A DNA stretch of 64,000 nucleotides from Nonomuraea roseoviolacea subsp. carminata (GTDB lineage: Bacteria > Actinomycetota > Actinomycetes > Streptosporangiales > Streptosporangiaceae), in assembly GCF_024172185.1 (NCBI RefSeq), contig NZ_JAMZEC010000001.1:124001-188000 (forward strand), in the 5' to 3' direction. The notes under the pieces were generated by a model. The model was given only the letters and a program-made list of their open reading frames with translations. It was not told the DNA's origin and ran no database searches. This document shows positions 7,870 to 38,455 of this stretch, piece by piece. Both the position numbers and the translations under genes were made by a program. Position 1 is the stretch's first letter. Every line of letters begins with the position of its first letter.

Positions 7870-8946
7870 TCAGTTGTCGGAGAGCGGTTCGGGGAGCACC
7901 GGCTGCGCGCCGCGCGGGGACCTCTCGGACAGCGCGGTGATTTCCCTGGCCAGGTCGGCGAAGTCGATCTCCTTGATCCCCATGGGCGGGACGCCGGCGT
8001 TCAGCGCAAAGAGGATCATGTGCGCGAACCGGTAGTCAGGGTCCGCCCGCAGGGCGCGCTCCGCCGCGAGCCGGGCCAGGGCGCCGTCACCGGCTCGGTA
8101 GGCGAGAAGGGCCAGGTTGACGGCCGCCGCAGGAACGTACTCCGGCTCCAGCCGCCTGGTGACCTCGGTCCAGAACCGGTGCGAGACCTCGTCGCCGTAC
8201 TCGTCCTGGAAGGTGAGTGCGATGTCCCGGATCTGGATTCCGGTGAGCAGCACGCCCAGCCATGCCAGTTCCTCGACGGGGATCGGCCGTCCGGCGCGAA
8301 CGTGGTCGAGGCAGTCCCGGACGTGCCGCGTTCCCTCACCGAACCAGTACCCGGCGTCCACCGTAGGGATCAGGGACTCGGCGCGGGCGCGCGCCGCCGC
8401 CGTCGCCGTGCGCACAGCCTGCCGTTCCGGGCCCTCCACAGGCTCCAGGGTCCTGGCGAAGCTGTCCCGATCCGGCATCGCGACGCGCCCGGCGAGCACC
8501 GCACCGGCCGCTACGTGGCTCCCCGCCACGTCGTACGGCACGCCCTCGGGCGAGCAGCAGTGAGGGTCCTTGCAGATGTACGACCAGAAGCGGTCGCCCT
8601 CGCATCGGACCATGTCGAGGATCTCGATTCCCGCCCGGGTGACGGCCGCGAAGAGCCCATCCATGATAGGAGTGACCTGCTGGCCGGATCCGTAGCCGAT
8701 CAGGAACACGTACCGTGCGCCATTCTGCGCCAGAAGACGCGCGCAGTAGGTGGCGGCCTCGGGGGCGTCCTCTGACAAGTCCGGAAGGTCGAAGCGGATC
8801 ACGCCCTTGAGCGCGTCGCCGTCGAATGCCATGGCGACGAGGCTCCGGTCTGGGTGGAAGCCCAGCAGGTACGGCACGATGGCGATGAAGTCGGCCGGAT
8901 CCTTCAGGGAGACGGCGTGGTCGTTGGAGTCGGGGGAATCGGGCAT
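7870..8946 (-). CDS. DUF4192 domain protein
   Basis: The protein has 358 aa. The start is ATG 8946 with TCTGGAGGAAAACC before it. The N-terminal DUF4192 pattern is clear: LKDPADFIAIVPYLLGFHPD, then SLVAMAF, RYVFLIGYG, and a Cys-rich RCEGDRFWSYICKDPHCCS block. The C-terminal third is alpha-helical and repeat-like (LALLAYRAGDGALARLAAERAL), resembling a TPR tail. DUF4192 proteins are actinobacterial and of unknown function. Next to a DUF932 gene it belongs to a recurrent mobile-element pair. Its 12-nt leader ATGTCTGGAGGA is identical to the one before the DUF932 gene. Confidence 0.88.
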   Translation of the reverse strand: MPDSPDSNDHAVSLKDPADFIAIVPYLLGFHPDRSLVAMAFDGDALKGVIRFDLPDLSEDAPEAATYCARLLAQNGARYVFLIGYGSGQQVTPIMDGLFAAVTRAGIEILDMVRCEGDRFWSYICKDPHCCSPEGVPYDVAGSHVAAGAVLAGRVAMPDRDSFARTLEPVEGPERQAVRTATAAARARAESLIPTVDAGYWFGEGTRHVRDCLDHVRAGRPIPVEELAWLGVLLTGIQIRDIALTFQDEYGDEVSHRFWTEVTRRLEPEYVPAAAVNLALLAYRAGDGALARLAAERALRADPDYRFAHMILFALNAGVPPMGIKEIDFADLAREITALSERSPRGAQPVLPEPLSDN

Positions 8947-29414: not shown

Positions 29415-30092
29415 ATGGCATGTGTGCTGGTCGTGGAGGACGATCTGGTCATCAGGTCCGAGCTGGTCGAAGCCCTGGCCGCCCAGGGCTACGAGGCGGA
29501 GCCGGCCGCGGACGGGGCCGAGGCGCTGCTGGCCGCCGAGCAGCGGCAGCCTGATCTCGTCCTGTTGGATCTGGGACTGCCCGACGTGGACGGAGTAGCT
29601 CTGTGCCGGCGGTTGCGCTCAAGGGTGCCGGACACGGTGATCGTCGTGCTGACAGCTCGTACGCAGGAGTTCGAGGTCGTGGTGGCGTTGGACGCGGGGG
29701 CTGACGACTACCTGACCAAGCCGTTCCGGCTGACCGAGCTGATGGCCAGGATCCGCGCACACCTGCGGCGGCGTGGCCCCGCACAGGGAGAGCGCATACT
29801 GACGGTCGGGCGACTGCGGCTCGACTTGCCCGCGCGGCGGGCCTATGTCGGGCAAGCGGAGGTGGTGTTGCGGCCCAAGGAGTTCGACCTGCTGGCGGCG
29901 CTGGTCAGCCGGGCGGGCGAGGTGGTGACGCGCGAGCAGCTCATGGACGAGGTGTGGGACGAGAACTGGTTCGGCCCCACCAAGACGCTGGACGTGCACG
30001 TGTTCGCGTTGCGCCGCAAGCTGGCCGAGCGCGGCGAACCGATGGAGCGGATCGTCACGGTGCGGGGGCGCGGCTACCGTTACGAGCCATGA
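29415..30092 (+). CDS. OmpR-family response regulator
   Basis: The protein has 225 aa. The receiver domain has the acidic pocket VVEDD, phosphoacceptor Asp52 (LLDLGLPD), Thr80 and Lys102 (LTKPF). The C-terminal winged helix (residues ~130-225) carries RPKEFDLLAALVSRAGEVV and RRKLAERGEP...VRGRGYRYEP, so it binds tandem half-sites. Its partner kinase gene ends 8 bp away on the other strand. I infer that it controls the promoters at 31.4 and 36.6 kb, which carry 11-bp-phased half-sites typical of this family. Confidence 0.95.
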   Translation: MACVLVVEDDLVIRSELVEALAAQGYEAEPAADGAEALLAAEQRQPDLVLLDLGLPDVDGVALCRRLRSRVPDTVIVVLTARTQEFEVVVALDAGADDYLTKPFRLTELMARIRAHLRRRGPAQGERILTVGRLRLDLPARRAYVGQAEVVLRPKEFDLLAALVSRAGEVVTREQLMDEVWDENWFGPTKTLDVHVFALRRKLAERGEPMERIVTVRGRGYRYEP

Positions 30093-30099
30093 CCGGCTG

Positions 30100-31401
30100 C
30101 TACGTGTCGTGGCCGGGTAGCAGCAGGCTGAACAGCGGGGGCCTGGCGCGGCTCAGTACCAGCCGGCCGCCTTCTGCTTCGGCGAGTGAGCGGGCCAGGG
30201 CCAGACCGATGCCGTGGCTGTGTCCGCTGGAGCGGATGAACGGGTCGCTGTCCGGAGCCACGCCGGGCCCGTGATCGCTCACCTCGACGGCTATGCCAGG
30301 CCCCACGTCGGAGACGGTGACGGCGACCTCGCCCCGGCCATGGCGCAGGGCGTTGTCGAGCAGGACGTGCAGAACCTGCCGGACGGCGGCGGGCTGGGCG
30401 GTGACTGGCGGCAGCGCGGGTTCCACGGTGATGGTCAGGCGGCGGCCCTGCCGGGCCAGCTGGCCGTGCCACTCCTGCCGGACCTCCTCCATCAGTCCGT
30501 CCACGTCGAGTGGCTCGGCGGGCGCGCGGCTGTCGCGGCTGAGCCGTACGAGGTCGTCGAGGACCTCCTGCAGACGCTCGCCCCGAGCCAGCGCGGCCTG
30601 AACCGCTGGGGCCAGGTCCGCGCCCGGCCGGGACAGCGCCGATTCCAGGCCGAGCAGCAGGCCGGTCAGCCCGGTGCGCAGTTGGTGGGAGACGTCCGCG
30701 CTGAAGGCGCGCTCGCGGGCGAGCACGTCGCCGAGACGGCGCGCCGTCGCCTCCAGCGCCTGTGCCGCCTGGTCGGCCTCGCGTAGTCCGGAGCGTGCGG
30801 CGCGGATGCTGAAGTCGCCGCCGCCGAGTGCTTGTGCTGCGGTGGTCAGCCTCTCCAAGGGGGCGGCGAGCCGGGTCGACTGGCGTACGGCCGCGCCCGC
30901 CGCGAGCGCGATGACGAGGAGGGCAAGGCCGCCCATGAGCAGCCACGCCTGATGGATGCGGTTGTCGATCTGCTCGTTCGGTGTCGCGACCCGGATGACC
31001 AGCGCGGTGCCCTCGTCGGAGGGCACCGGCGCGGACACGGCCAGGAAGCCGTTCTCCACCATGTCGTGGACGTGCCCGTCCCTGCTGGAGGCGGCCAGGG
31101 GTGAGCGGGCGGGCCCCTCGCCGAACAGCCGGGTGCCGTCCACGGCGTAGCCGCCGACGGCCAGCTCGCCGGACAGGCGCGCGGGCAGCTTCAACCCCGC
31201 ACCCGCATCGCGGGCGGCCTCATCGGGAACGGCCGTGGCGACCCAGGCGGCGTCGCGTTGCAGGGCGGCCACCGTCTGGTCGTGGTAAAGGATGTTCACC
31301 GCGATCGCCAGGGGCACCAGGAAGAGCGCGACGGCCAGGGCGGTCACGCTGACGATCACCACCAGCACTCGCCGCCGCAGCGGCACGCCCTGTGCTGTCA
31401 C
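30100..31401 (-). CDS. membrane sensor histidine kinase
   Basis: The protein has 433 aa from GTG 31401. Two membrane helices (residues ~12-36 and ~152-172) flank an extracytoplasmic sensor of ~115 residues. A HAMP linker follows, then the H-box FSADVSHQLRTGL (His239), and an ATPase domain with the N-box LHVLLDNALRHGRG, VSDHGPGV and GIGLALARSLAE. The phosphatase-type residue order is normal. It is convergent with the response regulator (8-bp gap between stops), not co-oriented, and shares its 5' region with the lipoprotein/ABC operon. Confidence 0.95.
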   Translation of the reverse strand: MTAQGVPLRRRVLVVIVSVTALAVALFLVPLAIAVNILYHDQTVAALQRDAAWVATAVPDEAARDAGAGLKLPARLSGELAVGGYAVDGTRLFGEGPARSPLAASSRDGHVHDMVENGFLAVSAPVPSDEGTALVIRVATPNEQIDNRIHQAWLLMGGLALLVIALAAGAAVRQSTRLAAPLERLTTAAQALGGGDFSIRAARSGLREADQAAQALEATARRLGDVLARERAFSADVSHQLRTGLTGLLLGLESALSRPGADLAPAVQAALARGERLQEVLDDLVRLSRDSRAPAEPLDVDGLMEEVRQEWHGQLARQGRRLTITVEPALPPVTAQPAAVRQVLHVLLDNALRHGRGEVAVTVSDVGPGIAVEVSDHGPGVAPDSDPFIRSSGHSHGIGLALARSLAEAEGGRLVLSRARPPLFSLLLPGHDT

Positions 31402-31424
31402 GCTTCCAGCGTGGCAGAAGGAAG

Positions 31425-31480
31425 GTAAACGCCCCGCTAACCCGGTGTTCAGCGGGCGCTTCCCGGCCTGTTCCTAGCGT
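31425..31480 (+). promoter_or_regulatory. three 11-bp-phased half-sites plus -10 of the ABC operon
   Basis: GTAAAC (31425-31430), GCTAAC (31436-31441) and GTTCAG (31447-31452) start exactly 11 bp apart. The -10-like TAGCGT is at 31475-31480, 8 bp before ATG 31488. There is no -35 hexamer; the third half-site occupies that position. This is the layout of an OmpR-family activated promoter. The same arrangement recurs on the minus strand at 36.6 kb. Confidence 0.7.
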
Positions 31481-31487
31481 GGGAGGC

Positions 31488-32090
31488 ATGAAGGTACGGC
31501 AGAGCGTCATCGCCCTGGCCATGGCAGGGCTGGCGGCAGGCTGCTCGGCAGCCGTGCCCGCCCAGCCCAAGGCCGAGCCTCAGGCGCAGACACAGGCACC
31601 CGTGAGCGACGGCATCCCGGCTGCGCAGCCCACCGAGTCGAATCCGCCGGGCGACATACCGGACGACACGGTGTTCGTGACCTACCGGCACCCCGGGCAG
31701 CCGTATGAGGTGAAGGTGCCTGAAGGATGGGCGCGCACGGACCTGCCCACCGGGGCGAGCTTCACCGACAAGCTGAACAGCGTCCGCATCGAGATCGAGC
31801 CCGCCGCCTCCCCGCCGACCGAGGCGTCGATCAGGAGCCAGGTGCGCGGCGGCGACGTCCGCACGGTCGGCACAGTGACCAGGAAGGGCGGCAAGGCGGT
31901 GCGGATCGTCTACCGCGCCGACAGCAGCCCCGACCCGGTCACCGGAAAGGTCGTCAAGGACGAGGTCGAGCGGTACACCTTCTACCGGAGCGGGCACGAG
32001 GCGATCCTGACCCTGTCCGGGCCGGTCGGCGCCGACAACGTGGACCCGTGGCGTACGGTCTCCGACTCCTTCCGCTGGACGGCGTCGTGA
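31488..32090 (+). CDS. lipoprotein of an ABC export-type operon
   Basis: The protein has 200 aa from ATG 31488; GGGAGG is only 1 nt upstream, so initiation may be near-leaderless. A signal with lipobox LAAGC (Cys19) is followed by a Pro/Gln-rich linker and a ~140-residue exterior domain (VFVTYRHPGQPYEVKVPEGW..., AVRIVYRADSSPDPVTGK). I do not recognise the domain. Its last codon overlaps the first ATPase start as GTGA, so it is translated with the ABC transporter. It may be an accessory lipoprotein that gates or supplies the transporter. Confidence 0.85.
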   Translation: MKVRQSVIALAMAGLAAGCSAAVPAQPKAEPQAQTQAPVSDGIPAAQPTESNPPGDIPDDTVFVTYRHPGQPYEVKVPEGWARTDLPTGASFTDKLNSVRIEIEPAASPPTEASIRSQVRGGDVRTVGTVTRKGGKAVRIVYRADSSPDPVTGKVVKDEVERYTFYRSGHEAILTLSGPVGADNVDPWRTVSDSFRWTAS

Positions 32091-32740
32091 TCCTGCAGGC
32101 CGAGGAGCTCTACCGGTTCTACCGGTCGGGCGATGAGGAGACCAGGGCGCTGCGCGGGGTGAGCGTCGATGCCGCCGGGGGCGAGGTCGTGCTGGTCAGC
32201 GGCCCGTCGGGGTCGGGCAAGTCCACGCTGCTGGCCTGCCTGGGCGGCCTGGACGACCCGGACGGCGGCACGGTCAGGGTGGACGGCCACCGCATCAGCC
32301 ACCGGCCGGAGGCCGAGCGGGCCGCGCTGCGGGCCCGGCTGGTGGGCGTGCTGTTCCAGAGCGGCAACCTGATCGAGCACCTGACGGTCGCGGCCAACGT
32401 GGATCTGGCCCAGCGGCTGGCGGGGCGGCGCGATCGTCGCCTGCGCGACGAACTGCTGGCCGGTCTGGGGCTGGCGGCCAGGGCCGGGGCGTGGCCGAGC
32501 GAGCTGTCCGGTGGAGAGTCGGCCCGGGCGGGGCTGGCCGTGGCGCTGGCCAACCGGCCGGCGCTGCTGCTGGCCGACGAGCCCACGGGCGAGCTCGACC
32601 AGCACACCGAAGGGCCCGTCCTGCGGCTGATCCGCCGGCAGGCCGGGGAGCGCACCGCCGTGGTGATCGCCTCACACAGCCCGGGCGTACGGCGGCTGGC
32701 CGACCGCGTCCTGGAGCTGAAGGACGGCCGAGCGACATGA
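32087..32740 (+). CDS. ABC ATPase, MacB/LolD type
   Basis: The protein has 217 aa from GTG 32087. Walker A GPSGSGKST, Q-loop VLFQSGNLIEHLTVAANV, signature LSGGESARAGLA and Walker B LLLADEPTGELD match ATPases that pair with FtsX-like permeases. The switch His is in VIASHSPG. The signature motif has SARAG where QRVAIA is usual. It overlaps the lipoprotein gene (GTGA) and the next ATPase (ATGA). Confidence 0.92.
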   Translation: MILQAEELYRFYRSGDEETRALRGVSVDAAGGEVVLVSGPSGSGKSTLLACLGGLDDPDGGTVRVDGHRISHRPEAERAALRARLVGVLFQSGNLIEHLTVAANVDLAQRLAGRRDRRLRDELLAGLGLAARAGAWPSELSGGESARAGLAVALANRPALLLADEPTGELDQHTEGPVLRLIRRQAGERTAVVIASHSPGVRRLADRVLELKDGRAT

Positions 32741-33414
32741 CCGTGGAGCTGCATGATCGGGCGGCCGGCACGACCGCGCTGGTCACCTGTCAGGGGCTGG
32801 CCCGCTCGTACGGCAAAGGAGCGAACGCCCTGGTCGCCGTGCACAGCGTCACCTGCGAGCTGCGGCCGGGGCAGCAGATCGCGGTCACCGGCCCGTCGGG
32901 GTCGGGCAAGACGACGCTGCTGCACCTGCTGGCCGGGCTCGACCGGCCCACGGCCGGGCGGATCGCCTGGCCCGCCCTCGACGATCACCCGCGTGGCCGC
33001 GTCGGCGTGGTCTTCCAGGGGCCCAGCCTGCTGCCTCCGCTCAACGTCGCGGAGAACGTCGCGCTGCCCCTGATCATCGCGGGTGCCGGAGACTCCGAGG
33101 CCAAGGAACGGGCGTTGATCGCGCTGGCCGCGATCGGCCTGGCGGACCTGGCCGGCTCACTGCCCGAGGAGCTGTCGGGCGGGCAGGCGCAGCGCGTCGC
33201 GGTCGCCCGCGTGCTGGCCGCCGAGCCCCGCCTGATCATCGCGGACGAGCCCACGGCTCAGCTCGACTCGGATCTGGCCCGCCGAGTGGTGGATCTGCTC
33301 ACCGGGGTGGCCTCCCGACTGGAGTCGGCACTGGTGGTCGCCACCCACGACCCGCTGGTCGCGGCGCGGCTGCCCGCCACATGGGCCATGAGCGACGGAA
33401 CTCTCACATGCTGA
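32737..33414 (+). CDS. second ABC ATPase, MacB/LolD type
   Basis: The protein has 225 aa from ATG 32737 (ATGA overlap). Walker A GPSGSGKTT, Q-loop VVFQGPSLLPPLNVAENV, signature LSGGQAQRVAVA, Walker B LIIADEPTAQLD and His in VVATHDPLVAA are canonical. Having two different ATPases with one large permease suggests an ATPase heterodimer. It overlaps the permease start by 7 nt. Confidence 0.92.
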   Translation: MTVELHDRAAGTTALVTCQGLARSYGKGANALVAVHSVTCELRPGQQIAVTGPSGSGKTTLLHLLAGLDRPTAGRIAWPALDDHPRGRVGVVFQGPSLLPPLNVAENVALPLIIAGAGDSEAKERALIALAAIGLADLAGSLPEELSGGQAQRVAVARVLAAEPRLIIADEPTAQLDSDLARRVVDLLTGVASRLESALVVATHDPLVAARLPATWAMSDGTLTC

Positions 33415-35942
33415 TCCTCATCTGGCTGCGCGGACTGCTGTCCCGCCGGGCGGGCAGGCTGGCCGCGGCCGCGGCGGGCATCGCGCTCGCCGTGGCGCTG
33501 CCCGCCGCGCTGGGCGCGTTCCTGGCCTCCGCCAAGGCCACCATGACGGCCCGGTCGATACAACGGGTGGCGGTCGACTGGCAGGTGGAGCAGCAGCCTG
33601 GCCAGACCGTGTCCGTCCCGATGCCCGGCACCTCCAGGCAAGTGAGCTTCGCCAGGATCGACGGCTTCGAGTCCCGCCAGGCCGGGCAGACCCTGACCAC
33701 GGGCGCGGGCCAGGTCCTCGGGCTGCCCGCCGGCTACGCCGCCACCTTCCCCGGCGAGCTCCGTCTGCTCGCGGGGAACGCGAACGGGCCGATGCTGGCC
33801 CAGCAGACCGCCGCCAACCTGCACGCCCAGCCCGGCGCCAGCATCACCGTGCGCCGCCCAGGGCTGCCCGACACGGCAGTGGCGGTCACCGGGGTCGTGG
33901 AGTTGCCCGCCGCCGACTCGCTGTTCCAGCGCGTCGGCGCACCGCCGGGCGCGCAGCCGCAGGCGCCCCCCGACAACGTGCTGCTGTTGCCGGAAGCCGA
34001 CTGGCACCGCATGTTCGACGGCATCGCGCGCGACCGGGTGCGCACCCAGTTCCACGTCCGCATCGACCACCGGCTGCCGCCCGACCCGGCCGCGGCCTAC
34101 ACCGCGGTCACCGGACAGGCGCGCAACCTGGAGGAGCGCATGGCCGGCAGCGGGCTGGTCGGCGACAACCTCGGCGCGGCACTGGACGCCGCCCGCGAGG
34201 ACGCCCTGTACTCGCAGGTGCTGTTCCTGTTCCTGGGTGCGCCGGCGGTCGTGCTCGCGGCCCTGCTCGCCGGCCTCGTCACGCGGGCCGGCGCACCACG
34301 GCGGACAGCTGAGCAGGCGCTGCTGCGCACCAGGGGCGCCTCCAGGGGGACACTGGCGCGGCTGGCACTGGCCGAGACCGCGCTGGTGGGCGTGACCGGT
34401 GTGCTGGCCGGCCTGGGGCTGGCCGCGGTGGCCGGACGGCTGGTGTTCGGGTCGGCGAGCGTGTCGTGGTGGGCGGCCGTCCTGGGACTGCTGGTCGCGG
34501 CCGTCACCGTGCTGCCGCCCGCGCTGCGCGCCTCCACCGTGGCGGACGCCCGCCGTCCGGTCGGCGGGCGGCGCCGCTCGCCGATCTGGCTGCGCTATGG
34601 GCTGGACCTGTGGCTGCTCGCCGGCTCCGCCGTGATCTTCTGGATCACCAGCAGGAACGGCTACCAGCTCGTCCTCGTTCCCGAGGGGCTGCCCCAGCTG
34701 TCGGTCGACTACTGGGCGTTCGCCGGTCCGGCACTGCTGTGGGCCGGGACGGGCCTGCTCGCCTGGCGTCTCACACGGACGCTGCCCGGCCCGTTCGTGA
34801 CCTGGACGGCCAGGCCACTGGCCGGGGGCCTGGCCGGCGTGGTGTCGGCGATGCTGACGCGCCAGCGGGCGCCGCTGGCCCGCACCGCCACCCTGGCCGC
34901 GCTGGCCGTCGCGTTCGCCCTGTCCACGTCCGTCTTCGACGCCACCTACCGCCAGCAGGCCGAAGTGGACGCCGAGCTGACGAACGGAGCCGACGTCACC
35001 GTCTCCCAGACCACCGCCACGCGGGCAGAGCTCGCGGCAGTGCCCGGCGTGTCCCGGGTCGAACCGCTCCAGCATCGCTTCGCCTACGTCGGCTCGGACC
35101 TGCAGGACCTGTACGGCATCCGCCCCACCACCACCCGGCTGCACGACACCTACTTCTCCGGCGGCACCGCCCGTCAGATCCTCGACCGGCTCGCCCGCCG
35201 TCCCGACGCGCTGCTGGTCAGCCAGGAGACCGTCAACGACTTCCAACTCCGCCTCGGAGACCAGATACGGCTGCGCACCGAGGACGGCAGGACCGTCCCC
35301 TTCCACTACGCCGGCATCGTCACCGAGTTCCCGACCGCGCCCCGCGACAGCTTCCTCGTCGCCAACGCCGCCTACCTGGCCCACCGGCTGCCCACCGACA
35401 CCACGTACCTGATCACCACCGACGGGACCCCGCCCCACCGGGTCGCCGCCGACCTGCGCGGCAAGCTCGGCCCGACGGCGAAGATCACCGACGTGGAGAC
35501 CAGCCGCCAGGTCGTCGGCTCCAGCCTCACCGCCGTCGACCTGTCCGGCCTCACCGCCATTGAGCTCGGCTACGCGCTGGCCCTGGCTGGCCTGGCCACC
35601 GGGTTGCTGCTCGTGCTCGGCTTCGCCGAGCGGCGCCGTACGTACGCGCTCGCCAGGGTTCTCGGAGCGACCCCGCGCCAGCTCGGCTCCTTCGTGTGGA
35701 CGGAGGTCTGCCTGGTCGCACTGGCCGCGATCGTGCTGGGGACTGTCTGCGGGTGGGCGCTGTCACGGATGCTGGTGGCCGTGCTCAGCGGGGTCTTCGA
35801 CCCGCCTCCCGATTCACTGGCCGTGCCGTGGACCTACCTGGCCGCCGTCGCCGGCCTCGGTCTGGCGGCGCTGCTCGCCGCCGGAGCCGCCACGGTCCGA
35901 GCCACCCGCAGTCCGCCGCTCACCGTGCTCCGTGACCTGTGA
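33408..35942 (+). CDS. large FtsX-like ABC permease
   Basis: The protein has 844 aa from ATG 33408. It has an N-terminal membrane helix, a ~250-residue exterior domain, a cluster of membrane helices around residues 270-390 and 420-510, a second exterior domain, and a C-terminal FtsX block (LALAGLATGLLLVLGF, ARVLGATPRQLGSFVW, ALAAIVLGTVCGWAL). This duplicated FtsX layout is that of MacB/LolC-type mechanotransmitters, which move lipoproteins, peptides or drugs or control wall hydrolases. Its 3' end overlaps the PAP2 gene on the other strand by 129 bp. Confidence 0.92.
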   Translation: MLILIWLRGLLSRRAGRLAAAAAGIALAVALPAALGAFLASAKATMTARSIQRVAVDWQVEQQPGQTVSVPMPGTSRQVSFARIDGFESRQAGQTLTTGAGQVLGLPAGYAATFPGELRLLAGNANGPMLAQQTAANLHAQPGASITVRRPGLPDTAVAVTGVVELPAADSLFQRVGAPPGAQPQAPPDNVLLLPEADWHRMFDGIARDRVRTQFHVRIDHRLPPDPAAAYTAVTGQARNLEERMAGSGLVGDNLGAALDAAREDALYSQVLFLFLGAPAVVLAALLAGLVTRAGAPRRTAEQALLRTRGASRGTLARLALAETALVGVTGVLAGLGLAAVAGRLVFGSASVSWWAAVLGLLVAAVTVLPPALRASTVADARRPVGGRRRSPIWLRYGLDLWLLAGSAVIFWITSRNGYQLVLVPEGLPQLSVDYWAFAGPALLWAGTGLLAWRLTRTLPGPFVTWTARPLAGGLAGVVSAMLTRQRAPLARTATLAALAVAFALSTSVFDATYRQQAEVDAELTNGADVTVSQTTATRAELAAVPGVSRVEPLQHRFAYVGSDLQDLYGIRPTTTRLHDTYFSGGTARQILDRLARRPDALLVSQETVNDFQLRLGDQIRLRTEDGRTVPFHYAGIVTEFPTAPRDSFLVANAAYLAHRLPTDTTYLITTDGTPPHRVAADLRGKLGPTAKITDVETSRQVVGSSLTAVDLSGLTAIELGYALALAGLATGLLLVLGFAERRRTYALARVLGATPRQLGSFVWTEVCLVALAAIVLGTVCGWALSRMLVAVLSGVFDPPPDSLAVPWTYLAAVAGLGLAALLAAGAATVRATRSPPLTVLRDL

Positions 35943-36626
35943 CGCGGCCTTGTCCGTGGATGTCGCCGCCCGGAAAGGTGGCAGTTCCCGCCCGGACAGT
36001 CTGAAGGCGTTCACCGCCAACATGATCGCGGCCGGGGTGAGGATCAGCGAGCCCAAGGTGTCGCTGGGGTAATGCGCTCCGAGGTAGACCCTGGCAAGCA
36101 TCTGCCCGATCACGAGCACACAGCCCACCACCAGGACCGGCAGGAACAAGCGAGTGTTCCTCGCCAGCAGCGCGACGGCCACGACGATCGCCAGCGTCAG
36201 GCAGACGTGACCGCTGGGAAAACTGTCCGGGCCCAGCTCGTGCACCAAGGCGTGGCCGGCGGGCGGACGCGGGCGGGCGACGAGCGTCTTGACCAGTGGG
36301 CTCACGCACCACCCTGCGGCAATCACCACCAGCGCTGACCAGGCCGGTCGGAAAGGCCGCCACACGACAACCGCGACGACGAGCACACCGACGAGCACGC
36401 TGCCCACGGCTGTGCCGAAGCCCACGTTCAGCACCTGCGCCACCGCGGTCCACCCGGGCGAACGGATCGACTGAACCAGCTCGCTCGCCCTCGCATCCGC
36501 GGCGGTCCAGCCGGGCGAGCGGGCGGCGAATCCCACCATCACCCCGAGGACGAGCAACGTCGACGAGATCGCGATCCAGAACCACGGCCGACCTGCGTTC
36601 GCTCTGCTCGTGGTGCCGGATCGCAT
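35814..36626 (-). CDS. PAP2-superfamily phosphatase, membrane-bound
   Basis: The protein has 270 aa from ATG 36626; GTG 36650 is a less likely upstream start. The three PAP2 signatures are present: KTLVARPRPP, FPSGH and ARVYLGAHYPSD. These supply the Lys/Arg, Ser-Gly-His and Arg/His-Asp catalytic residues. Five to six membrane helices are visible. Such enzymes dephosphorylate lipid carriers such as undecaprenyl pyrophosphate. The last ~43 residues (after KAASQVTEHGERR) are read antisense to the ABC permease end and look non-native. Its promoter shares the three-half-site layout of the ABC operon. Confidence 0.88.
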   Translation of the reverse strand: MRSGTTSRANAGRPWFWIAISSTLLVLGVMVGFAARSPGWTAADARASELVQSIRSPGWTAVAQVLNVGFGTAVGSVLVGVLVVAVVVWRPFRPAWSALVVIAAGWCVSPLVKTLVARPRPPAGHALVHELGPDSFPSGHVCLTLAIVVAVALLARNTRLFLPVLVVGCVLVIGQMLARVYLGAHYPSDTLGSLILTPAAIMLAVNAFRLSGRELPPFRAATSTDKAASQVTEHGERRTAGGSDRGGSGGEQRRQTEAGDGGQVGPRHGQ

Positions 36627-36633
36627 GGATGCC

Positions 36634-36716
36634 ACGCTAGGGAAGGCCACATCAGCGCAACCTCAGCACCCGGTTAACGCGGCGCTAACCCAGGCGCTGT
36701 GCCGCAGGAAGTTAAC
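36634..36716. promoter_or_regulatory. regulator half-sites and -10 between the PAP2 and acidic-protein genes
   Basis: On the minus strand GTTAGC (36689-36684), GTTAAC (36678-36673) and GCTGAG (36667-36662) start 11 bp apart. They are followed 28 bp on by TAGCGT (36639-36634), the -10 of the PAP2 gene. Every spacing equals that at 31425-31480. A further GTTAAC at 36711-36716 points toward the plus-strand acidic-protein gene. Confidence 0.7.
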
Positions 36717-36805
36717 CTCACGCTGTCGTTGGCCCAACCTGCTGTTATCCGACGTTCTCGCAGGCTGGAGCGGTCAGCAAGACCCCTATCGCATTGGAGA
36801 CCCCT

Positions 36806-37147
36806 GTGCGCAAGCCTACGATCATCGCCGGACTCGCCGCTGCCGCCGTCCTCGTGACGGGTGGAGGCGCCGCCTTCGCCTCCTCTCTGCAGCACAGCCC
36901 CACCTCCGCCCCCTCCTCCACGGGACAGGCCCCCGACAGCAAGGTCAGCACCCCCGAGCCCAGCGCCGAGCAAGAGGAGCGCAACGAGAAGAACGAGCAG
37001 AACGAGAACGCCGAGCCCGAGAAGAACGAGCAGAACGAGAAGGCCGAGGACGGGGAGAACGAGCAGAAGGAGAAGAACGAGAAGGCCGAGGACGGCCACA
37101 ACGAGAAGAGCGAGAAGGGCGAGTCCGAGGACGGCAACGACGACTGA
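36806..37147 (+). CDS. secreted, extremely acidic Asn/Glu/Lys-repeat protein
   Basis: The protein has 113 aa. GTG 36806 has GGAG 6 nt upstream; TTG 36794 is a weaker alternative. A signal peptide (KPTIIAGLAAAAVLVTGGGAAFA) precedes a Ser/Pro linker. A ~60-residue tail follows, made almost only of Glu, Asn, Lys, Gln and Asp in repeating NEKNEQ/KAEDG units. It is predicted to be disordered, highly charged and extracellular or wall-associated, perhaps cation-binding. No enzyme motif. Its 5' region is shared with the PAP2 gene and contains regulator half-sites. Confidence 0.75.
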   Translation: MRKPTIIAGLAAAAVLVTGGGAAFASSLQHSPTSAPSSTGQAPDSKVSTPEPSAEQEERNEKNEQNENAEPEKNEQNEKAEDGENEQKEKNEKAEDGHNEKSEKGESEDGNDD

Positions 37148-37300
37148 GTCCTGGATCGGACGCCCTCCACACGTGCACCGGCGATGCGGAGGGCGTTCGA
37201 GGTCAGAGCCGAAGGAGATGTCATCCCTTGGGCTGGTGCGATCGTGTCGTTGACCTTGGTATCGGCCGGCGTCGCCGCGCGCCTTCCTAGGCTGACCGGC

Positions 37301-38455
37301 ATGCGACTGCGGTGGATGACGAGCATGCTCGCTGCGGCCGCGGTCGCCGCGGCCTCCTGCGGCGCGCCGCCCGTCCCCATGGCGGCGGCCCCCGAGCCCG
37401 GGCCGCCGCTGCAGTCGCCACCGCGGCAGCAGCCCATGCAGGCACCTGAGCGCAAAACTCTCCTTGACGTCTACGCCCACGACAGGCCGGGGATGCTCAA
37501 CCCGAAGGTCCGGAACGTGACCCCTCGCGTGTATGTCCCCAACAGCGAGTCGGGCACGGTGGACGTGATCAACCCGCGGACCTTCCAGGTCGTGCGCCAC
37601 TTCCGGGTCGGCAGCCTGCCCCAGCACGTCGTGCCCTCCTGGGACCTCAGGACGCTGTGGGTCAACGAGAACAAGGGCAACAGCCTCACCCCCATCGACC
37701 CGGTGACGGGCCGTCCCGGCAGGCCGGTGCCCGTGGACGACCCGTACAACCTGTACTTCACCCCCGACGGCTCGTACGCCCTGGTCATGGCCGAGCGCAA
37801 CAACCGCCTCGACTTCCGCGACCCCCGCACGATGCGCCTGGTCCGCTCCCTCCCTCTGCCGTGCCGGGGCGTCAACCACGGCGACTTCACCGCCGACGGA
37901 TCCGTGTTCCTGGCCAGCTGCGAGTTCTCCGGGCAGCTTGTGGCGATCGACTGGAAGCGTCCCCGCGTACGGAAAGTGATCAGCGTCGGGGCGGGGAACA
38001 TGCCGCAGGACGTCAAGCTCTCGCCCGACGGCCGGGTCTTCTACGTCGCCGACATGATGGCCGGCGGCACCTGGATCATCGACGCCGCCGCCTTCCGGCG
38101 TCTGGGCTTCCTGCGCACCGGCAAGGGCGCGCACGGCCTGTACGTCAGCAGGGACTCGCGCTCCCTCTACGTCTCCAACCGGGACGAGGGGACCGTCTCC
38201 GTCGTCTCCTTCGCCGGCCGCAAGGTGGTCGACCGGTGGCGGATCCCGGGCGGCGGCTCACCCGACATGGGTGGGGTGTCGGCGGACGGCAAGCAGCTCT
38301 GGCTGTCCGGCAGGTATCACGGGGTCGTGTACGTCTTCTCCACCGGGACGGGCAAGCTGCTGCACACGATCAAGGTGGGCCGGGGACCGCACGGCCTGTG
38401 CTTCTTCCCCCAGCCCGGACGCTACTCCCTCGGCCACACCGGCGTGTTCCGATGA
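37301..38455 (+). CDS. YncE-like beta-propeller lipoprotein
   Basis: The protein has 384 aa. ATG 37301 has no ribosome site and TAGGCT ends 7 bp upstream, so translation is probably leaderless. A lipobox-like AASC (Cys20) is followed by a Pro-rich linker and repeats of the YVTN/YncE propeller: RVYVPNSESGTVDVINP, TLWVNENKGNSLTPID, VFYVADMMAGGTWIID, SLYVSNRDEGTVSVVS. Such exterior propellers bind proteins or polymers. A GTTGAC lies at 37249, where the second regulator half-site sits in the other promoters, but only one half-site is seen. Confidence 0.85.
   Translation: MRLRWMTSMLAAAAVAAASCGAPPVPMAAAPEPGPPLQSPPRQQPMQAPERKTLLDVYAHDRPGMLNPKVRNVTPRVYVPNSESGTVDVINPRTFQVVRHFRVGSLPQHVVPSWDLRTLWVNENKGNSLTPIDPVTGRPGRPVPVDDPYNLYFTPDGSYALVMAERNNRLDFRDPRTMRLVRSLPLPCRGVNHGDFTADGSVFLASCEFSGQLVAIDWKRPRVRKVISVGAGNMPQDVKLSPDGRVFYVADMMAGGTWIIDAAAFRRLGFLRTGKGAHGLYVSRDSRSLYVSNRDEGTVSVVSFAGRKVVDRWRIPGGGSPDMGGVSADGKQLWLSGRYHGVVYVFSTGTGKLLHTIKVGRGPHGLCFFPQPGRYSLGHTGVFR

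Follow-up and report, generated by a model that had tools for sequence, protein, structure and literature searches.

Which factor governs the promoters of a transporter operon and a phosphatase gene that lie beside a two-component system in Nonomuraea roseoviolacea subsp. carminata? The locus falls in a 64,000-nucleotide stretch of contig NZ_JAMZEC010000001.1 (positions 124,001 to 188,000; hereafter the window, to which coordinates refer). Here, genes for an OmpR-type response regulator and a sensor histidine kinase adjoin an ATP-binding cassette (ABC) transporter operon headed by a lipoprotein (LP) gene, followed by a gene for a PAP2 phosphatase. An initial annotation, made from the sequence, had placed three direct hexamers before the LP operon and before the PAP2 gene, and had named the adjacent regulator and kinase as their controllers. 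We find that each promoter carries a four-part array, in which one inverted half-site is followed by three direct ones, at a fixed distance from a -10-like element. With a probability of about 0.72, this array is the operator of the adjacent OmpR-type regulator, which is predicted to act as an activator once phosphorylated by the kinase. Comparative support is strong, and the genes appear to form a genuine regulon, of a known kind but with a mixed inverted and direct operator layout that is less usual.

The two promoters share an identical hexamer architecture, and the coordinates and distances first given for it are exact to the base. Before LP, on the plus strand, GTAAAC (31425), GCTAAC (31436) and GTTCAG (31447) precede the -10-like TAGCGT at 31475; before PAP2, on the minus strand, GTTAGC (36689), GTTAAC (36678) and GCTGAG (36667) precede TAGCGT at 36639. 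In both cases, successive hexamers start at intervals of 11 bp, and TAGCGT follows exactly 28 bp after the third start. No TTGACA-like -35 element was seen by eye 17 bp upstream of either TAGCGT, as had been claimed. The three half-sites originally listed are thus present, but a fourth, in register with them and starting at 31458 and 36656, had been overlooked. The arrays read as follows:

31424..31430, minus strand: LP half-site 1, inverted (GGTAAAC on the plus strand)
31436..31442, plus strand: LP half-site 2, direct, GCTAACC
31447..31453, plus strand: LP half-site 3, direct, GTTCAGC
31458..31464, plus strand: LP half-site 4, direct, GCTTCCC, newly recognized
31475..31480, plus strand: -10-like TAGCGT of the LP operon, followed after 7 bp by the ATG (31488)
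36684..36690, plus strand: PAP2 half-site 1, inverted relative to the gene
36672..36678, minus strand: PAP2 half-site 2, GTTAACC
36661..36667, minus strand: PAP2 half-site 3, GCTGAGG
36650..36656, minus strand: PAP2 half-site 4, GCTGATG, newly recognized
36634..36639, minus strand: -10-like TAGCGT of PAP2, followed after 7 bp by the ATG (36626)

Because the ATG lies only 7 bp past the -10-like element at both genes, their transcripts are probably leaderless. Scanned with a matrix from 38 training sites, which excluded the window, its duplicate (see below) and three near relatives, the two arrays score 59.2 and 45.6, and the next best site in the 64 kb scores 12.5.

Pooling of 47 sites yielded the half-site consensus GYTNACC. 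The half-site centres are spaced by 12, 11 and 11 bp, and a gap of 10 bp separates the end of half-site 4 from the -10-like element, TANNNT (mostly TANNGT). For half-site 1, the direct reading is better than the inverted one in just 2 of 39 loci; for half-sites 2, 3 and 4, it is better in 30, 30 and 38 of them. When the loci are thinned to below 70% identity, the direct reading is the better one in 2, 18, 18 and 20 of 21 sites (half-sites 1–4), the inverted reading of half-site 1 being superior in the other 19; these orientation counts are not wholly independent, as the sites were gathered with a matrix of the same array. The first half-site being inverted, the operator is not of the plain direct-repeat type, and the original reading as three direct repeats is partly wrong. 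Half-sites 1 and 2 together make a good inverted repeat, GGTNARC-N5-GYTNACC, and conservation is about equal at half-sites 3 and 4. At its fourth position, half-site 2 has A in 85% of the 47 sites and C in 4%. By hand count, 28 of these sites have a start codon (ATG or GTG) 6–7 bp past the -10-like element that begins a frame of more than 120 codons (one of them, in L186, may be a chance frame), whereas elsewhere the gene starts further on. Labels beginning with L and G denote genomic stretches and genomes, respectively.

A genome-wide pattern search had been suggested at the outset. The exact pattern GYWARCN5GYTAACN5GYTSAG, which covers half-sites 1–3, has four matches in the 9.75-Mb genome, two in the window and two in a duplicate of the module that the initial annotation had missed. 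With up to two mismatches, the pattern yields seven matches, compared with four in the control, the backward sequence; GGTNARCN5GYTNACCN5YTNA with up to one mismatch yields ten, compared with none. Of those ten, the same four reach matrix scores of at least 49, while the remaining six range from -7.0 to -24.7. The genome was covered by these pattern searches, which may miss weaker targets elsewhere in it. Each of the four exact matches is followed after 22 bp by TAGCGT or TACCGT, with an ATG 6–7 bp further on. The second copy lies near 8.59 Mb: window positions 29415–37147 match positions 8800–17700 of L090, with 87–89% nucleotide identity across the main part. The encoded proteins are 96% (regulator), 87% (kinase), 83% (LP), 89% (permease) and 63% (PAP2) identical. 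Duplication of the module therefore accounts for the four strong sites in this genome, and the two regulators, nearly identical and with the same recognition helix, would jointly control all four promoters.

Does the array follow the regulator through the family? By hand count, 49 of 200 sampled family genomes carry the regulator family (at least 67% identity); the next matches are at 57–58%, followed by a widespread regulator at about 53%. Of the 200, 188 have some regulator match with E ≤1e-60, mostly a single one at about 53% identity. Across the sample, the exact pattern has 20 matches in 16 genomes, against one in the backward control. Sixteen of the matches, spread over 12 genomes, score at least 45 and are followed by TANNNT at the right distance; the other four (in G181, G077, G123 and G092) are without the right -10 and score at most -8.8. 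All 16 place TANNNT, which the search pattern did not contain, at a single fixed distance. Every one of the 12 array genomes carries the regulator family, 11 plainly and G027 as a partial match in L201; partial genes of this kind may be missed in other genomes. Among those with a low-scoring match, G077 also carries the regulator. Arrays are thus found in 12 of 50 genomes with the regulator and in 0 of 150 without it (Fisher p 2e-8, ignoring kinship). A class-wide search of 296 genomes, with a pattern one letter short of accepting the LP site of the window, gave three exact matches, all in the genome studied here, and one in the control.

LP is present in 27 of the 200 genomes, and besides those of our genome we fetched 25 LP stretches from 24 genomes, omitting G021 and G190 (E >1e-4) and weak second matches. 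Where an LP-type stretch includes a close regulator, a matrix-positive array stands before LP in 14 of 15 cases, window and duplicate included; the exception is L145 (score 4.6). In L132, the kinase gene lies upstream and is co-directional, and the array sits between kinase and LP, directly before LP, which assigns it to LP and not to the kinase. The regulator of G148 is encoded on contig C87, apart from the LP and PAP2 arrays on C303, as expected for a trans-acting factor.

A 19-site matrix with a cut-off score of 20 was then applied to 38 stretches in which no LP was seen at ≥50% identity. Of these, 36 surround the regulator, one comes from G027 and one surrounds the chance match in G077. 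The training set of the matrix omitted off-register duplicates (L130, L132, L133, L135, L136, L137 and the window), a reverse-strand overlap on the minus strand of L133, and the sites L125:6021, L126:8354, L128:13386, L136:7398, L141:13391 and L148:18145; with later matrices, L128:13386 scored 29.4 and L136:7398 scored 26.3. A site above 20 is present in 22 of the 37 scanned regulator stretches, while the highest null scores are 3.1 (190 simulated stretches) and -6.4 (38 reversed ones). With the LP stretches added, 36 of 52 regulator stretches hold an array, or 24 of 40 excluding the 12 training stretches.

The genes behind these arrays point to a small regulon as initially proposed, the LP–ABC operon and PAP2 both being recurrent predicted targets in family stretches. 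In eight stretches (L192–L195, L197–L199 and L201), LP is not there and the array precedes a PAP2 gene divergent from the kinase. It precedes a short PAP2 protein in L171 by Pfam, and in L172 and L176 alike by eye. A PAP2 gene is served in L165 as well; there, at L165:8095, an apparent decayed LP promoter and the start of LP remain without an LP–ABC operon, and the boxed PAP2 is kept. Other arrays stand before a DUF347 protein (L186), an ABC operon lacking LP (L169), and major facilitator superfamily-type proteins in L128 and L131 (by eye). A protein of the latter superfamily by Pfam also follows a weaker array in L169 (12.6 and 19.9 with two matrices), and the open reading frame behind the array in L187 has no Pfam match. 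A side observation concerns L189:8770, where a weak array (21.9) lies 6 bp before the ATG of a 1368-residue frame beside the regulator; by eye, its product resembles a peptide synthetase.

Several results weigh against assigning the array to the adjacent regulator. The array tracks an OmpR-type regulator across the family, which favours the controller named originally, yet 16 of the 52 regulator stretches, distributed over four parts of the regulator tree, are without one. Eight of these 16 keep the usual recognition helix ending in A, so the helix sequence does not account for the loss. LP can also occur without a good array: L145 scores 4.6, L139 has none, and the LP promoter of L127 scores -3.7 in a genome whose regulator is on another contig. 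The arrays L184:7437, L185:11595, L188:7475 and L190:11313 are directed at the 3' end of the kinase gene, where no open reading frame is evident; such high-scoring arrays possibly serve a small RNA or a short peptide. Joint inheritance of a single locus explains part of the association, and the matrix was originally seeded from the pattern of the initial annotation. Finally, no array was seen by eye upstream of the regulator gene in the window, the duplicate or Microtetraspora, and autoregulation was accordingly not upheld.

Two observations concern the array-less stretches. Upstream of the kinase in L167, L175, L180, L182 and L183, which lie in a clade with the same recognition helix, a shared stretch with TGTGATG and ATCACCAG replaces the array. 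The idea that a helix ending in T instead of A marks array loss was dropped. Arrays accompany 0 of 8 T helices and 36 of 44 A helices (p 1.7e-5; 35 of 43 without L201, whose helix was not read), but seven of the eight T cases belong to one clade, in which L177 has A and no array; the count was not kept as evidence.

The module and its neighbouring genes are arranged as follows:

29415..30092, plus strand: OmpR/PhoB-type response regulator, 225 residues, predicted to bind the array; Pfam Response_reg and Trans_reg_C
30100..31401, minus strand: sensor histidine kinase, 433 residues; Pfam HAMP, HisKA and HATPase_c
31488..32090, plus strand: LP, lipoprotein of 200 residues with a predicted PsbP/Mog1/LpqN-like fold
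32096..32740, plus strand: ABC transporter ATPase 1; Pfam ABC_tran
32734..33414, plus strand: ABC transporter ATPase 2; Pfam ABC_tran
33408..35942, plus strand: FtsX-type permease, 844 residues; Pfam FtsX in two stretches
35814..36626, minus strand: PAP2 phosphatase, 270 residues; Pfam PAP2
36812..37147, plus strand: acidic secreted protein, candidate target; open reading frame with no Pfam match
37301..38455, plus strand: YncE-type beta-propeller protein, candidate target; Pfam YNCE

The regulator combines a receiver domain (Response_reg, E 4.2e-30) with a winged-helix domain (Trans_reg_C, E 7.1e-28), and its closest named relative, at 93%, is from Microtetraspora malaysiensis. It stays below the cut-off in the best 25 of 109 matched NCBIfam models, including those for PhoB (TIGR02154; 200.1 bits, cut-off 296.2), MtrA (NF040689; 196.2 bits, cut-off 300) and CseB of cell-envelope stress (NF041733; 181.7 bits, cut-off 350). 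The kinase gene is convergent with that of the regulator and divergent from the LP operon, and it adjoins the regulator in most fetched relatives; by eye, about 120 residues of the kinase precede its second membrane helix. The LP operon comprises LP, the two ATPases and the permease. LP has no Pfam match; its predicted structure (mean pLDDT 82.9) matched PsbP in Foldseek (1v2b, E 6.5e-6) and, more weakly, LpqN (6e5d, E 1.3e-3) and MOG1 (5yfg, E 2.8e-3). Its closest named relatives are mostly from Nonomuraea, and a viral scan found none in viral sequences. The PAP2 gene runs toward the LP operon and overlaps the permease frame tail-to-tail by 129 bp (35814–35942).

A related arrangement is the BceRS-BceAB/BcrC bacitracin module of Bacillus, a two-component system with an FtsX-type ABC transporter and a PAP2-type phosphatase. 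Bce-type modules have an intramembrane-sensing kinase nearly without an extracytoplasmic domain, one ATPase and the BceB permease. The module in the window resembles them in its FtsX-type transporter beside a two-component system and in its PAP2-type phosphatase, and differs in its two ATPases and its lipoprotein of PsbP/LpqN fold.

Alternative readings concern the identity of the binding protein and the sign of its action. A repressor role of the 29415 regulator at the LP and PAP2 promoters is unlikely: some OmpR-family regulators do act as repressors, and the array overlaps the -35 region, but the lack of a visible -35 element, the constant position of TANNNT in all 16 exact arrays and the Pho-box-like 10-bp gap better suit an activator. 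We find it hard to credit that the array belongs to a widespread regulator of the PhoP, MtrA or RegX3 type, with the adjacent pair as a bystander. GYTNACC does resemble other actinobacterial OmpR-family sites, such as the GTTCACC of Streptomyces coelicolor PhoP (PMC4832192), and RegX3 is among the nearest solved structures to the 29415 regulator, with TKTLDVHV common to the recognition helix. Nonetheless, although 188 genomes hold a regulator match of some kind, matrix-positive exact arrays occur only where the window's own regulator family does, and the class-wide search returned exact matches from our genome alone; no site search aimed at PhoP, MtrA or RegX3 entered this comparison.

Two further readings keep only part of the array. 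Three direct repeats bound by a tandem dimer or trimer could be read from the three hexamers 11 bp apart, as GTTAAC is palindromic and the first can be read either way; this is about as improbable as a widespread owner, given the near-uniform inversion of half-site 1 in the full and thinned sets, the conservation of half-site 4 and the direct orientation of half-sites 2–4 in most loci. Least probable of all is a palindrome of half-sites 1 and 2 for an unrelated dimeric repressor independent of the two-component pair. The inverted repeat is a good one, but half-sites 3 and 4 and the distance to the -10 are conserved as well, and the array accompanies the regulator to other genes.

How might the adjacent regulator act through the array? 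The kinase would phosphorylate it, and four subunits or two dimers would occupy the array, head-to-head at half-sites 1 and 2 and in tandem across 3 and 4. The promoter-proximal subunit may then take the place of the absent -35 contact, in the manner of Pho-type class II activation, and transcription would start at or near the ATG. We propose these steps because of the regulator family and the precedents of PhoP, ArcA, AgrR and the Pho box of E. coli. The genes switched on would make up an envelope-protection set, namely the PsbP/LpqN-fold lipoprotein with its ABC exporter and the PAP2 phosphatases, a role suggested by the identities of the targets alone.

The precedents, as excerpted from their reports, are close in part. 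The AgrR box of Cupriavidus metallidurans, an OmpR-family operator for which type II activation was proposed (PMC7380067), likewise combines an inverted half-site pair with extra in-phase direct half-sites; it has 6-4-6 spacing, the motif ATTACA and a direct repeat at some operators only, whereas the present array has GYTNACC and two further, recurring direct half-sites. ArcA sites of E. coli contain two to five elements, mostly at the 11-bp centre distance also found here (PMC3798270), but these are direct repeats in which a predicted third element at 12 bp is unprotected, while in our array the 12-bp step falls within the inverted pair. PHO boxes consist of 11-bp units, up to four core units plus two further ones at one promoter (PMC4832192, PMC7866108), and PhoP of M. 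tuberculosis has a higher affinity for three and for four tandem motifs than for a pair (PMC4832192). In E. coli, 10 bp separate the Pho box from the -10 downstream of it (PMC1906773), the same gap as after half-site 4. The excerpts give direct half-sites for Streptomyces PhoP (GTTCACC) and E. coli PhoB (CTGTCAT); here half-site 1 is inverted and position 4 of half-site 2 is mostly A, and the array does not form a direct-repeat PHO box of GTTCACC.

Among the literature matches listed, we found no prior description of this regulon, which is not proof of absence. An uncharacterized regulator of an actinomycete group thereby gains a likely operator, a target list and a promoter geometry from sequence alone. 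The mixed array would test the DNA layouts of OmpR-family proteins, which are usually described on direct repeats, and a response that protects the envelope is suggested by the repeated association with PAP2 phosphatases and an FtsX-type exporter.

Two more genes of the window are weak candidate targets, each with a possible array:

36711..36766, plus strand: weak candidate before the acidic protein gene, four in-register direct half-sites and CAGGCT
37238..37293, plus strand: weak candidate array with -10 TAGGCT, 7 bp before the beta-propeller ATG (37301)

The acidic secreted protein, which has a relative in Microtetraspora, had been mentioned initially as a possible regulon member. The half-sites before it, which have the best half-site score in the 64 kb outside the main arrays (17.0, held-out matrix), are conserved in five aligned promoters, window and duplicate included; however, these have CAGRCT at the place of the -10, where TANNNT stands elsewhere, and the full-matrix score is just 3.6 or 1.7 (two matrices). 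The beta-propeller candidate has the third-best full-matrix score in the window (12.5 or 8.4 with two window-excluding matrices) and poor half-sites; in L134, a beta-propeller gene follows LP behind an array.

A wider picture can be offered tentatively, at rather less than even odds: a Streptosporangiaceae-type, family-wide regulon with an asymmetric four-subunit complex (one subunit head-to-head, three in tandem) at a fixed promoter distance, often at leaderless promoters, and with paralogous regulators next to the same lipoprotein–ABC operon whose half-sites are rewired (TTTTGCC/GCTGGCC) and whose -10 distance is kept. A two-half-site pattern for such diverged (group B) promoters was uninformative, with 19 matches in the 200 genomes against about 31 in the backward control, and thus neither supports nor refutes rewiring. 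By eye, the LP promoters of L138, L140, L141, L144 and L146 have TAGCGT or a similar -10 and TTTTGCC/GCTGGCC-like half-sites at comparable distances. In the diverged LP stretches, the regulator, where present, is 52–56% identical. L140 and L144 also carry a group-A array before another gene, and their genomes hold a group-A regulator on another contig.

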